From a virus: a DNA stretch of 64,000 bases. A program made the position numbers and the translations under genes. The stretch lies in the IMG/VR virus record IMGVR_UViG_3300023174_003901, positions 62,001 through 126,000 of that record. One strand, written 5' to 3'. Below are positions 7,957-48,390 of this stretch, piece after piece. How positions within the stretch are numbered: the first letter of the stretch is position 1; each line of letters begins with the position of its first letter. The notes under the pieces are model-generated. The model did not search any database and was not told the origin of the DNA. It saw nothing but the letters and a program-made list of their open reading frames with translations.

Positions 7957-8290
7957 ACAAGAATTTTTAAACTTTTGGAAAAACATTGAATGGCCTGAAA
8001 TCAAGCCGGTTTATCTTAGACTTTACCACGATGATTCGGGTCTGCCATTGTTTTACAGTCATGAAGATCAGCCCGGTAAGTATATTGACCTTACTCCTGA
8101 ACAGTTTGCATTGAGAGACCTGCAGGTACGTGTAGTTGATGGTGTGTTAAAACCACGCAAGCGACCGGTGCCACCTAAGTTAGTGCCCAGTGATCAAGGA
8201 ACACCTTGCGACCCTAATGATGTTGCTGTTGTAGTAAGCGCACAAGAACCCAACCAACAATGGAAATTAAAACAACATGAGCAAGATTGA
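7949..8290 (+). CDS. Conserved phage-type hypothetical protein (113 aa)
   Basis: I prefer the GTG at 7949 (VTEQEFLNFW), 8 nt after AAAGGA and overlapping the previous stop by 8 nt, over an ATG at 7916. The protein has an aromatic-rich N-terminal half (FWKNIEWPEIKPVYLRLYHD), a compact beta region (KYIDLTPEQFALRDLQVRVV) and a Pro/Lys-rich tail. No catalytic motif is seen. It lies between two glycosyltransferase-like genes with overlaps on both sides. Confidence 0.6.
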   Translation: MTEQEFLNFWKNIEWPEIKPVYLRLYHDDSGLPLFYSHEDQPGKYIDLTPEQFALRDLQVRVVDGVLKPRKRPVPPKLVPSDQGTPCDPNDVAVVVSAQEPNQQWKLKQHEQD

Positions 8291-37144: not shown

Positions 37145-37202
37145 CAATGTCTCCTTGACATACATATACAACGCCATAGCCCTACAAAGGGTTTACATAG
37201 TC

Positions 37203-37230
37203 AAAAAAATAGGCTCCGAAGAGCCTATTT
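37203..37230 (-). terminator. Terminator of permuted tmRNA
   Basis: AATAGGCTC / GAGCCTATT stem with UUCG loop followed by TTTTTT on the minus strand; ends the tmRNA coding piece. Confidence 0.9.
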
Positions 37231-37272
37231 TGGTGGTTTCTGTTACGAGGTATTTCCTACCCTAGGCGGCTG

Positions 37273-37305
37273 TTAAGCGGCCAATGCGAACTGTTCGTCG
37301 TTTGC
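37273..37305 (-). other. tmRNA proteolysis-tag reading frame
   Basis: Codes A-N-D-E-Q-F-A-L-A-A then stop; ends in the LAA degron used by ClpXP. Differs by one residue from the ANDERFALAA tag of betaproteobacteria. Confidence 0.9.
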
Positions 37306-37411
37306 TTTTACGTTTTTTGTTGTCTTCGGCCAGGAACTCCCAACCCTACGGCTTCCACATTGCCGAGCGCCATTACCCCTACTCTTTGCCCTGTCGAAAC
37401 TATGCAGGCCC

Positions 37412-37504
37412 ATCAAAAAAAGAAATGTAATATGATGACAAATATTAATAGTGTTATTACTACTACATCACATGTTCTACATTTGTCCATAACATATCCT
37501 CTTT
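37412..37504 (-). other. Intervening segment of permuted tmRNA
   Basis: About 93 nt, AT-rich, between the CCA end and the 5' end of the coding piece. Expected to be excised to give two RNA pieces. Length and exact ends are inferred. Confidence 0.6.
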
Positions 37505-37579
37505 TGGTGGACCTGGGGGGATTCGCACCCCCGTCCAGAACACTTTTCTTGATAACAGTTTACGCTGTTTGAGTATTTA

Positions 37580-37873
37580 TTATTGATAAATCACTACGTC
37601 TTGGAAGTCTTCACCGTTGACACAGAGTGCGTATTCACGTTTGGCATTATAGCCTTTCTTTAGCACAACCATACCGTCTGCTGTGGTAAAGATTACTTTG
37701 GTACCAATGGTCATACGACCTAGACCCAATTCTCTACGCTCAAATTCAGGATCGTTCATGATCTTGCCACTGCCAAAATCAATACCGTTGTAAACAGCAG
37801 GCACTCGCTCGCCGTTGACCAATAGTACGTATTGGCTGTTTTTGACTAACTTGCTAGGGATAATCTTACGCAT
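37580..37873 (-). CDS. Small phage protein (97 aa)
   Basis: AGGAAACAG precedes the ATG. Beta-rich with repeated strand pairs: QYVLLVNGERVPAVYNGIDF and TKVIFTTADGMVVLKKGYNA. No known domain. It ends just above the tmRNA acceptor piece and may share its transcript, driven by TTGACC-18-TATAAT. Confidence 0.7.
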   Translation of the reverse strand: MRKIIPSKLVKNSQYVLLVNGERVPAVYNGIDFGSGKIMNDPEFERRELGLGRMTIGTKVIFTTADGMVVLKKGYNAKREYALCVNGEDFQDVVIYQ

Positions 37874-45629: not shown

Positions 45630-47273
45630 TCATGCTTGGCTAATCAGCCATTCTGAGAAAGTTTCTGTGCTATGATCTATGCTTTGTATTTTTGGTATGG
45701 TCAATTTCTTGAATATTAAATTTTTATATGCAATCATTCTTTGCATTTTTTTCTTATCTAATGCATGCCAGTCAACCTGGGGGTTCGTTTTGTTAAAACT
45801 GGTTGATAAATCAACTCCTAGCCCTGCTATGCTAAATGCCGCAAGCCCACTGACATTATTTCGTATGGTTTGAGATTTTTGTTGTATGTCCTCTACCATT
45901 TTTTGAATTTCCAATCGATCAGTATGCTCATTTTTCCAAATCAACTGACCTTGCTCATTTCTATTTTGAGTATAAATTGATCCGCGACTTTCGTCGTTGC
46001 CTATCACACTATAGCCATATTTGGAATAGTTCTTGTCAAGATCACTGAGGAAGTCGTTAGAGTAGGTTTGATTATTTGGCCTGATACTCAGTGCTTGAAC
46101 TATCCAAGAGTCCAATGGGTTTTTGTCACTCATTAAAAAATCTGTAGTTTCTTGCAAACTGCTCAATGATTCGTGTGGCAATCCGTATATAAAAGACCCG
46201 TGCAAATTTACATGATTTCCGTATTGTTGTTTTATTTTTCGAACAGTATCAAACAAACGAGTACGATCGCCTCCTTTGCCAATGGCACTAGCGGTCTTGG
46301 GGTTAAGAGTTTCGATTCCAAAAAATGCTGAACGTAGGCCGCTTTCAAACAACCACTCAACAGTTTCTGGGTGTGCTGTCAACAAATCCAGTCTGATATA
46401 TCCCCACCACTCTAACTTAAATGGCAATCTCTTGCTCATGTCATAAATCATCTGACATTTTTCAGGACTGTCGTTCACAGTGTCATCACAAAAAATATAT
46501 CTTGTGATTCCAAATCGTTCATAGTTGTCGACCAATTCTGCATAGATGTAATCCATGTTCCGTATAAAATCCAATTTTTTCTTTCCATTCATTGGATAGG
46601 AACAGAATGCACATTTAAAAATACAACCACGTGCAACTTCTAACAGCAAGGTTTCTCCGGGCAGAATTGCATCATGATCTTCGTAACGCATCTGGCATTC
46701 GTTAAAATCATAAGTCTCTGCTCGGCTATCATTGATTATAATAGACCCGTGTACGCTTTTGTGTGCTTTTTGTAAATCTATGTTTGTGTCACAAAGATGC
46801 TGTGCTAGATTAACTATTGATGTTTCTGAGTATCCGATACACTGATAATCAAAAATTTTGTTGTATTCAACATCTCTAGCAGTAGGACCACCTAGAGTTA
46901 GTTTACAGTTGGGATTGCAGTCACGGATTAGATTTTTGATAATCTCATTGTATTGAGGGCCATGTGGTAATATACAACCGGGCGCAATGTTTTGTAAAAT
47001 CACACCCCCGTTCTCAGACCTGTTTGGATTTGCAATATCAGCATAAAAGAAGTTGTTAACTCCTACAAACAGAGTTTTGTCTGAAATAAGGTTACGCAAT
47101 ATGTGACAAATTTCCTCAACAGTAAACACACTGAGATGATGTAGAACTGCGACTTGAAACCCTTGACTTCTCAAGGCCTGGGCAACTTTATAAGGTCCCA
47201 GGGTCTTGCTCAAAGTAATTACATCAGTCTTGTCAGACAGTAAAATTACATTGGGAAAATTTTTGTCAAACAT
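45630..47273 (-). CDS. Cobalamin-type radical SAM protein
   Basis: 547 aa. N-terminal Rossmann-like domain (LGPYKVAQALRSQGFQVAVL) of the B12-binding radical SAM class, though the DxHxxG cobalamin motif is absent. Core cluster RGCIFKCAFCSYP (CxxxCxxC) near residue 220; then CDDTVNDSPEKC and FGIETLNPKTASAIGKG, the conserved catalytic segments. Acts on unknown substrates. AT-rich relative to neighbours, with its own TTGACA-18-TATAAT promoter. Confidence 0.85.
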   Translation of the reverse strand: MFDKNFPNVILLSDKTDVITLSKTLGPYKVAQALRSQGFQVAVLHHLSVFTVEEICHILRNLISDKTLFVGVNNFFYADIANPNRSENGGVILQNIAPGCILPHGPQYNEIIKNLIRDCNPNCKLTLGGPTARDVEYNKIFDYQCIGYSETSIVNLAQHLCDTNIDLQKAHKSVHGSIIINDSRAETYDFNECQMRYEDHDAILPGETLLLEVARGCIFKCAFCSYPMNGKKKLDFIRNMDYIYAELVDNYERFGITRYIFCDDTVNDSPEKCQMIYDMSKRLPFKLEWWGYIRLDLLTAHPETVEWLFESGLRSAFFGIETLNPKTASAIGKGGDRTRLFDTVRKIKQQYGNHVNLHGSFIYGLPHESLSSLQETTDFLMSDKNPLDSWIVQALSIRPNNQTYSNDFLSDLDKNYSKYGYSVIGNDESRGSIYTQNRNEQGQLIWKNEHTDRLEIQKMVEDIQQKSQTIRNNVSGLAAFSIAGLGVDLSTSFNKTNPQVDWHALDKKKMQRMIAYKNLIFKKLTIPKIQSIDHSTETFSEWLISQA

Positions 47274-47297
47274 TGGTTGCCTTGATCATATCATGCT

Positions 47298-47327
47298 ATT
47301 ATAGCAACAAGTATCAATCAATGTCAA
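47298..47327 (-). promoter_or_regulatory. Sigma70 promoter, cobalamin-type radical SAM gene
   Basis: TTGACA, 18-nt spacer, TGCTATAAT; overlaps the AhpD-like stop. Confidence 0.8.
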
Positions 47328-47830
47328 CTATTCAAAACCTTGGCAACTGAGTTCATTACTGCGGCAATACGGCCAATGTCACGAAGTTGTTCTACAGTGT
47401 AGCCTTCTGTCTTGAGTGTTTCATAATGTGACCGAACACAAAAGTGACACTTGCCCACAATGCTTGCTGCCAAACTGAATGCTTCAAAGTTACTCTTGGT
47501 AGTTCCGCCATGTGACGCAATAGCGTTCATGCGTAACTGTGCTGGCAATCCTGTTAGGTTAGGATCATCAGCCATTTCAACGTAGGGGTACCATACATTG
47601 TTCTGTGACATAATACTTGCGGCTGTCATTGCTGACTCTGCATGTACTGGCGCATCTGCTAATAGGATACTCAGTACCTTCCCGTTGCCAGTTGCAGCCA
47701 GTGCGGCCACAGCACAACCCATGGCCACATCTGCATCCAAAGTGCTACGTACAAGAACAGCATCAAGATTTAACTTGGTGTCCTTGGCGTAGTCTGGCAA
47801 CGCTGATTTAACTGCGTCGATAAATGCCAT
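47324..47830 (-). CDS. AhpD-like alkylhydroperoxidase
   Basis: 168 aa, matching AhpD length. KCHFCVRSHYETL carries the CxxC-x3-H active site of the carboxymuconolactone-decarboxylase/AhpD fold. In mycobacteria AhpD reduces AhpC. Its start overlaps the stop of the AhpC-like gene by one nt, so both are co-expressed. Would help remove peroxide during infection. Confidence 0.88.
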   Translation of the reverse strand: MAFIDAVKSALPDYAKDTKLNLDAVLVRSTLDADVAMGCAVAALAATGNGKVLSILLADAPVHAESAMTAASIMSQNNVWYPYVEMADDPNLTGLPAQLRMNAIASHGGTTKSNFEAFSLAASIVGKCHFCVRSHYETLKTEGYTVEQLRDIGRIAAVMNSVAKVLNS

Positions 47831-48390
47831 TATAGTGTCTCTCCGCCCACTGTGCGGTTACAAGCACACAGTTCGCCAGTTTGCAATGCGTCTAATACAC
47901 GCAGAGTTTCTTCTGGGCTACGACCCACGTTCAAGTTGTTGACAGTGACATGTTGGATGACGTTGTCTGGATCCACAATGAATGTGGCACGAAGTGCGGC
48001 ACCTGCTGGAGCATAGAATACGCCCAACTGTTCAATAAGGCTTACGCTACCACGCTCTTCGCCGGGTTGGTGACGAGCAGTGTCAGCAAACTGATGATGT
48101 GTGATCTTACGCAAATCATCGTGACTCTTTTGCCATGCTACCTTGCAAAACTCGTTGTCTGTTGAGCCTGTTAGCAATACTGCATCACGATCAGCAAAGT
48201 CTTGTGCCAACTTGTCGTAGGCTACGATTTCTGTAGGGCAAACAAATGTAAAGTCCTTTGGATAGTAAACAATCACTTTCCACTTGCCTTCAAACGATTT
48301 TTCTGTAATCGTATAGAAAGCGTCTTCTGGTTGTCCAGGTTTGACGCCTGTTACTGCAAATTTTTCTAACTTATCGCCAACTGTTAACAT
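47830..48390 (-). CDS. Peroxiredoxin, AhpC family
   Basis: 186 aa. Peroxidatic Cys in DFTFVCPTEIVAYDKLA near residue 50, TGSTDNEFCKVAWQKSH and GAALRATFIVDPD follow the AhpC pattern. The C-terminus ELCACNRTVGGE supplies the resolving Cys. It reduces peroxides using AhpD (next gene). GGAG ribosome site and strong promoter. Very unusual as a phage gene pair. Confidence 0.9.
   Translation of the reverse strand: MLTVGDKLEKFAVTGVKPGQPEDAFYTITEKSFEGKWKVIVYYPKDFTFVCPTEIVAYDKLAQDFADRDAVLLTGSTDNEFCKVAWQKSHDDLRKITHHQFADTARHQPGEERGSVSLIEQLGVFYAPAGAALRATFIVDPDNVIQHVTVNNLNVGRSPEETLRVLDALQTGELCACNRTVGGETL

Follow-up and report, generated by a model that had tools for sequence, protein, structure and literature searches.

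Here we describe a phage gene for a circularly permuted, two-piece tmRNA that is likely to be functional and whose spacer, the segment intervening between the two pieces, probably doubles as a gene for a small protein. The gene lies in the window analysed here, a stretch of 64,000 nucleotides (positions 62001-126000) from a 200,246-base IMG/VR virus record that contains one such tmRNA gene. Permuted tmRNA in phages was already known (Melnitz, PMC9004378); the new part is the probable protein gene inside the permutation spacer, and we found no account of open reading frames (ORFs) in tmRNA spacers in the literature searched (open-licence papers only). Across phages more broadly, it is likely that the permuted tmRNA is often a nested gene of this kind.

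Rfam identified a complete two-piece circularly permuted tmRNA gene on the minus strand of the window (37205-37616), with end-to-end matches to both RF01850 (beta_tmRNA; 120.4 bits against a gathering threshold of 84) and RF04321 (tmRNA_permuted; 118.2 bits against 47), and ARAGORN called a permuted tmRNA at 37182-37597 with the tag ANDEQFALAA. On the minus strand, the 3' (CCA) piece lies upstream and the tag piece downstream (Table 1). The alanine identity set is complete (G3-U70, A73 and CCA); a G-U as the third acceptor pair is expected for alanine charging. The locus is a betaproteobacterial-type permuted tmRNA in a phage record, and this anatomy is established. That the precursor is cut into two RNAs, charged and used for tagging with SmpB is inferred, as is its transcription, in the absence of RNA or protein data. 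SmpB was not found in the 200,246-base record, and host SmpB would therefore be needed for tagging.

Table 1. Coordinates of the permuted tmRNA gene, its spacer ORF and adjoining features in the window.
Feature	Position	Strand	Details
Promoter-like TTGACC-18-TATAAT	37933-37904	-	
97-aa ORF	37580..37873	-	Function unknown; directly upstream of tmRNA
3' piece, permuted tmRNA	37505..37567	-	P2 strand, T-arm, acceptor 3' strand and ACCA; RF04321/RF01850 alignments
T-arm GGGGG-TGCGAAT-CCCCC	37532-37516	-	
Acceptor 3' strand CAGGTCC	37515-37509	-	
Encoded ACCA	37508-37505	-	
Spacer (intervening segment)	37504-37412	-	93 nt
Shine-Dalgarno-like GAGGA	37497..37501	-	3 nt past CCA, 6 nt ahead of ATG
Spacer ORF	37413..37490	-	25 aa, MDKCRTCDVVVITLLIFVIILHFFF then stop; N-terminal CxxC, one hydrophobic (membrane) span
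5' piece, permuted tmRNA	37231..37411	-	Acceptor 5' strand, D-region GTTTCGACAGGGC, hairpin/pseudoknot region and tag CDS; ARAGORN and Rfam
Acceptor 5' strand GGGCCTG	37411-37405	-	
Tag frame ANDEQFALAA then stop	37305-37273	-	Resume codon GCA, stop TAA; ARAGORN and coordinate check
Probable intrinsic terminator	37231-37199	-	Hairpin and seven T; from the sequence, palindrome listed

A first-pass annotation, made from sequence alone, had proposed a two-piece permuted tmRNA in a phage, with the CCA piece before the tag piece, a 7-bp acceptor stem (GGGCCTG/CAGGTCC) formed across the pieces and the tag ANDEQFALAA. All of these claims held (by ARAGORN and, for the form of the gene and the order of its pieces, also by Rfam, with the coordinates confirming that order), and the acceptor stem covaries among related phages. 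For the P2-like stem that it also drew across the pieces, the Rfam alignments place the P2 strand in the 3' piece, and the terminator that it placed after the tag is probable. It had proposed a covariance search, which we ran, with both models scoring above threshold, and it had named two outcomes that would refute it, namely models failing to align either piece or an acceptor stem not conserved in related phages; neither was observed. Its idea that the phage could rescue ribosomes with its own tag is plausible as an inference, given host SmpB. It missed the spacer ORF, which is our main point.

The ORF fills the spacer almost exactly. Its start lies 14 nt past CCA and its TGA stop at -1, 1 nt ahead of the 5' piece and within the UGAU-GGG junction, so that the window meets the layout that we sought in spacers, in which a Shine-Dalgarno (SD) sequence and start just past CCA are followed by a frame that stays open until a stop close to the 5' piece. 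Among 5000 shuffles of the window spacer, only 32 yielded an equally good ORF. The same spacer is predicted to fold as one long hairpin that extends the acceptor stem (-32.2 kcal/mol, z -4.18; 37405-37512), in which GAGGA pairs with the end of the ORF and both the SD and the AUG are enclosed; on this model, a stable hairpin over these elements would limit initiation. No homologue of the 25-aa peptide was detected, and selection on the window ORF could not be assessed for that reason. We consider the evidence for this particular ORF as a gene to be moderate: it is probably one, with the reservations that it lacks a homologue and that its translation is inferred.

The case for coding rests mainly on spacer ORFs as a class. 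Phage spacers fall into two kinds: some are noncoding and form structured hairpins, and others are taken up by an ORF that starts 9-15 nt past CCA. For a strict test, we took 62 spacer clusters of at least 55 nt, selected only by their tag, and required an ATG or GTG start with an SD and an ORF filling the spacer. Such ORFs occurred in 15 of the 62 clusters, against 1.24 expected and a maximum of 4 in 300 dinucleotide shuffles, and none occurred on the reverse complement of these clusters. Requiring ATG and an SD match of at least 5 left 10, against 0.20 in shuffles; a looser test allowing TTG gave 18 against 4.3, and we rely on the strict test instead. Around one third of the tag-selected clusters look coding when ORFs without a strong SD, or extending into the 5' piece, are also counted; most tag-selected phage spacers have no such ORF, and on contigs with the ANDERF tag only about 1 in 29 spacers does. 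Many viral contigs with the ANDERF tag (L245, L246, L252, L259, L261, L263-L265 and L278) share an identical noncoding spacer of 119 nt and may belong to a single widespread lineage of phage or prophage.

A further scan required an SD and ATG past CCA, which biases it towards those elements, though not towards ORF length or end. It returned 119 sites, 59 of which are permuted tmRNAs with an acceptor partner and D-region downstream, carrying diverse tags, alpha-type among them. Across both scans, spacer-ORF families that have diverged appreciably show pN/pS of 0.07-0.32 (mostly 0.2-0.3, with pS up to 0.7), including 0.21 for a set of eight 24-aa membrane peptides, and are thus under purifying selection; the exceptions are pairs with very few changes, such as a two-sequence pair that gives 0.49 from only 5 changes. 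Pfam searches placed DUF2061 in two spacers (E 3.5e-20 and 3.7e-21, above cut-off), a CxxCxxCC domain in one (26.6 bits against a cut-off of 23) and an Oxidored-like domain (PF09791; 45.9 against 24 bits) in a frame that lacks a start in the spacer, and a PHROGs search gave no function for the spacer proteins. Two families occur both inside spacers and as free genes directly upstream of a tmRNA: the upstream gene gp85 of Melnitz is 67% identical to the spacer protein of L198 (E 1e-32), and the upstream gene of L111 is 40% identical over 45 residues to the spacer protein of L022 (E 4e-15). The layout is uniform, with starts 9-15 nt past CCA in 68 of 70 spacer ORFs and stops at -1 in 33 of the 70. 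The two ends of a coding spacer pair with each other better than with the ends from other loci (-6.4 versus -4.6 kcal/mol), as do those of noncoding spacers (-8.6 versus -3.0 kcal/mol).

In L013, L039, L063, L109 and L119, the Oxidored-like frame lacks a start codon within the spacer; it stays open upstream into the 3' piece, the tRNA-like part. In a W-rich family (MF..WHW.Y.WGI...; L004, L025, L031, L035, L046, L152 and L185), the spacer ORFs extend into the 5' piece, and the same bases would therefore serve both a protein and a structured RNA.

A cultured phage provides an example. In Methylophilales phage Melnitz (MZ577097), the tmRNA spacer is 142 nt long; a 54-aa ORF, unannotated in the record (MZ577097 positions 46096-46260; L285, 1805-1969), is encoded by the spacer together with the opening bases of the 5' piece. 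Matches covering the whole of this ORF or most of it were found at eighteen IMG/VR loci (L350-L367), each of them inside a permuted-tmRNA spacer, and by our reading the frame is intact in 17 of the 18, the exception being L363. An in-frame indel of 24 nt (8 codons) occurs among these relatives with the frame kept, and pN/pS within the spacer is 0.08-0.26, although the numbers are small. Among other Melnitz-like loci, L368 has an unrelated ORF at the same site, and in L369 and L370 the spacers are shorter and show no clear ORF. Taken together, selection, recognizable domains and conservation in the Melnitz relatives are strong evidence that spacer ORFs as a class encode proteins; their coding nature is shown, and their translation is inferred.

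The window gene resembles the betaproteobacterial beta-type permuted tmRNA (RF01850; merged model RF04321) in piece order, in its acceptor, T and P2 elements and in its terminator, and the betaproteobacterial tag ANDERFALAA is close to ANDEQFALAA. The spacers differ. Our host set comprised two bacterial families with beta-type permuted tmRNA, in which we counted only the 12 spacers that could be delimited unambiguously; all 12 are hairpins of 24-42 nt without ORFs, whereas phage spacers are mostly 55-340 nt and often protein-coding. Several other bacterial genes are still shorter by ARAGORN length, although their spacers were not delimited, and broader bacterial samples, mostly from lineages with standard tmRNA, were of little use for this comparison. 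Melnitz shares with the window a phage-borne permuted tmRNA and a spacer ORF, but its RNA and tag are alpha-type, a glutamine riboswitch lies downstream, and it has no DNA match to the window gene. Group I intron tmRNAs, some with homing endonuclease genes (PMC11915505), likewise place a protein gene in an excised part of the precursor. They differ in relying on RNA splicing within the T-loop region and in encoding a mobile-element protein, whereas the phage permutation spacer would be removed by tRNA processing, by inference, and encodes varied small proteins.

Permuted tmRNAs are common in IMG/VR. The codon pattern for ANDEQFALAA was found in at least 119 IMG/VR viral contigs and in 1 of 84,980 species genomes, and 53 of the 133 distinct phage tmRNA structures in the Melnitz paper, mostly aquatic, are two-piece (PMC9004378); the first-pass statement that such genes are not common in phages was too strong. 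A tmRNA database from 2025 contains 79 sequences from phages, counting every form (PMC11915505). We do not claim that the tag is exclusive to phages, because the pattern fixes the codons and one bacterium has ANDEQFAIAA. The sole species-genome match (L121, CAIMTR010000195.1) comes from a MAG: its 3-kb contig carries a permuted tmRNA along with a tRNA array and is likely to be a misbinned phage fragment.

To count acceptor stems, we located 99 tag-matched loci without requiring complementarity, having dropped an earlier filter that imposed TCC and GGG and so made the G3-U70 counts circular. All 8 distinct stems pair at 7 of 7 positions, against 1.6 on average and a maximum of 6 for shuffled partners, with compensatory changes at pairs 4, 5 and 6 and G3-U70 kept in every one. 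The T-loop TGCGAAT of the window was found in 25 of 105 phage tmRNA genes. The nearest relative, L111, lies on a contig of 121,846 bases: a single HSP covers the whole tmRNA gene at 79% identity, and its tRNA array is collinear with that of the window, mostly at 80-89% DNA identity. At the spacer site, L111 has a different membrane ORF that is not clearly related to the window ORF. No DNA relatives of the window tmRNA were found among 50,697 phage records.

Some tag-matched loci combine parts of two types. The beta-type tag ANDEQFALAA is fused to alpha-type tRNA-like parts in L010, L014, L017, L019, L020, L033, L038 and others, and alpha-like T-loops (GGCAG..) occur mostly with the D-region ATCGA (14 loci), TTC/TGC T-loops with TTCGA (70 loci). 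This pairing of T-loop and D-region raises the possibility that phages exchange tmRNA modules by recombination. On two IMG/VR contigs, L283 (13,064 bases; 8142-8260, plus strand) and L284 (65,690 bases; minus strand), a related permuted tmRNA has an unusual tag frame of around 33 codons, AKTSTKIGAVKVKAAKGFRFGGTRVARTEAAFA followed by a stop (translated by eye), that replaces ANDEQFALAA.

Within the window, the tmRNA gene adjoins an array of more than 20 tRNA genes (ARAGORN, Rfam). We infer that the 97-aa ORF upstream is likely to be cotranscribed with the tmRNA; a search for its relatives found none. A fatty acid desaturase-like ORF (PF00487; 39013-39717, plus strand) lies on the opposite strand within the tRNA array. 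Farther away are genes for a radical SAM protein (PF04055) and a carboxymuconolactone decarboxylase-family protein (PF02627) (45630-48390, minus strand), and the stretch from 47.3 to 48.5 kb shares around 80% DNA identity with several tmRNA-bearing phage contigs.

We propose that a single transcript would start upstream, cover the 3' piece, the spacer and the tag piece in turn, and end at the terminator. Loading at the spacer SD just past CCA, ribosomes would translate the small protein, in the window a membrane peptide of 25 aa with a single span, and would stop at the UGA beside the RNase P cut. Host tRNA-processing enzymes would then excise the spacer, leaving two pieces joined by pairing in the acceptor and P2 stems, and the alanine-charged tmRNA with host SmpB would add ANDEQFALAA to stalled nascent proteins.

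One alternative is an ordinary phage permuted tmRNA whose spacer is only a processing hairpin, the 25-aa ORF being a chance product of U-rich sequence; U-rich sequence favours hydrophobic codons. The very stable fold with its paired SD and AUG, the lack of a homologue and the majority of tag-selected spacers without an ORF all favour this reading. However, the rarity of equally good ORFs among shuffles, a start and stop placed as is typical of the coding class and the membrane ORF at the same place in L111 argue against it, and we consider it unlikely. Even less probable, in our view, is that the tmRNA is a decayed or host-derived fragment acquired by the phage and now nonfunctional. The non-canonical T-loop and the absence of a phage SmpB would fit such decay, but every pairing element is preserved, with covariation among phages, the tag is in an open frame and the same T-loop recurs in other phage genes.

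Harder to decide is whether the nested ORFs, as real genes, merely occupy a site that tolerates insertion, through compact packing and with no link to tmRNA processing. The presence of unrelated protein families at the site, two of them also found just upstream, supports this reading, whereas the uniform start and stop layout and the preferential pairing of spacer ends speak against it, with the caveat that these features could also reflect a constraint of the RNA itself. We see no clear balance either way; the reading is compatible with the nested-gene explanation and denies only a coupling between translation and processing. At the other extreme, the pre-tmRNA might be deliberately bifunctional, with translation of the spacer and maturation of the tmRNA mutually exclusive or under mutual control. 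In this bolder scheme, the SD would be paired with the ORF's own end in the stem that extends the acceptor; the excised spacer, once trimmed, would become a non-stop message tagged by the tmRNA, because the stop lies 1 nt from the processing cut; and the small protein would accumulate only under rescue overload. ArfA in E. coli is controlled in a similar way, but this is an analogy, and we regard the bolder scheme as unlikely.

If the nested-gene explanation is true, a structural-RNA gene and a protein gene are nested on one transcript, which would help to account for the much greater length of spacers in phages than in bacteria. Small phage proteins missed by annotation would come to light, one of them in the cultured phage Melnitz, and these loci would offer a direct system for studying how tRNA processing and translation compete on one RNA.
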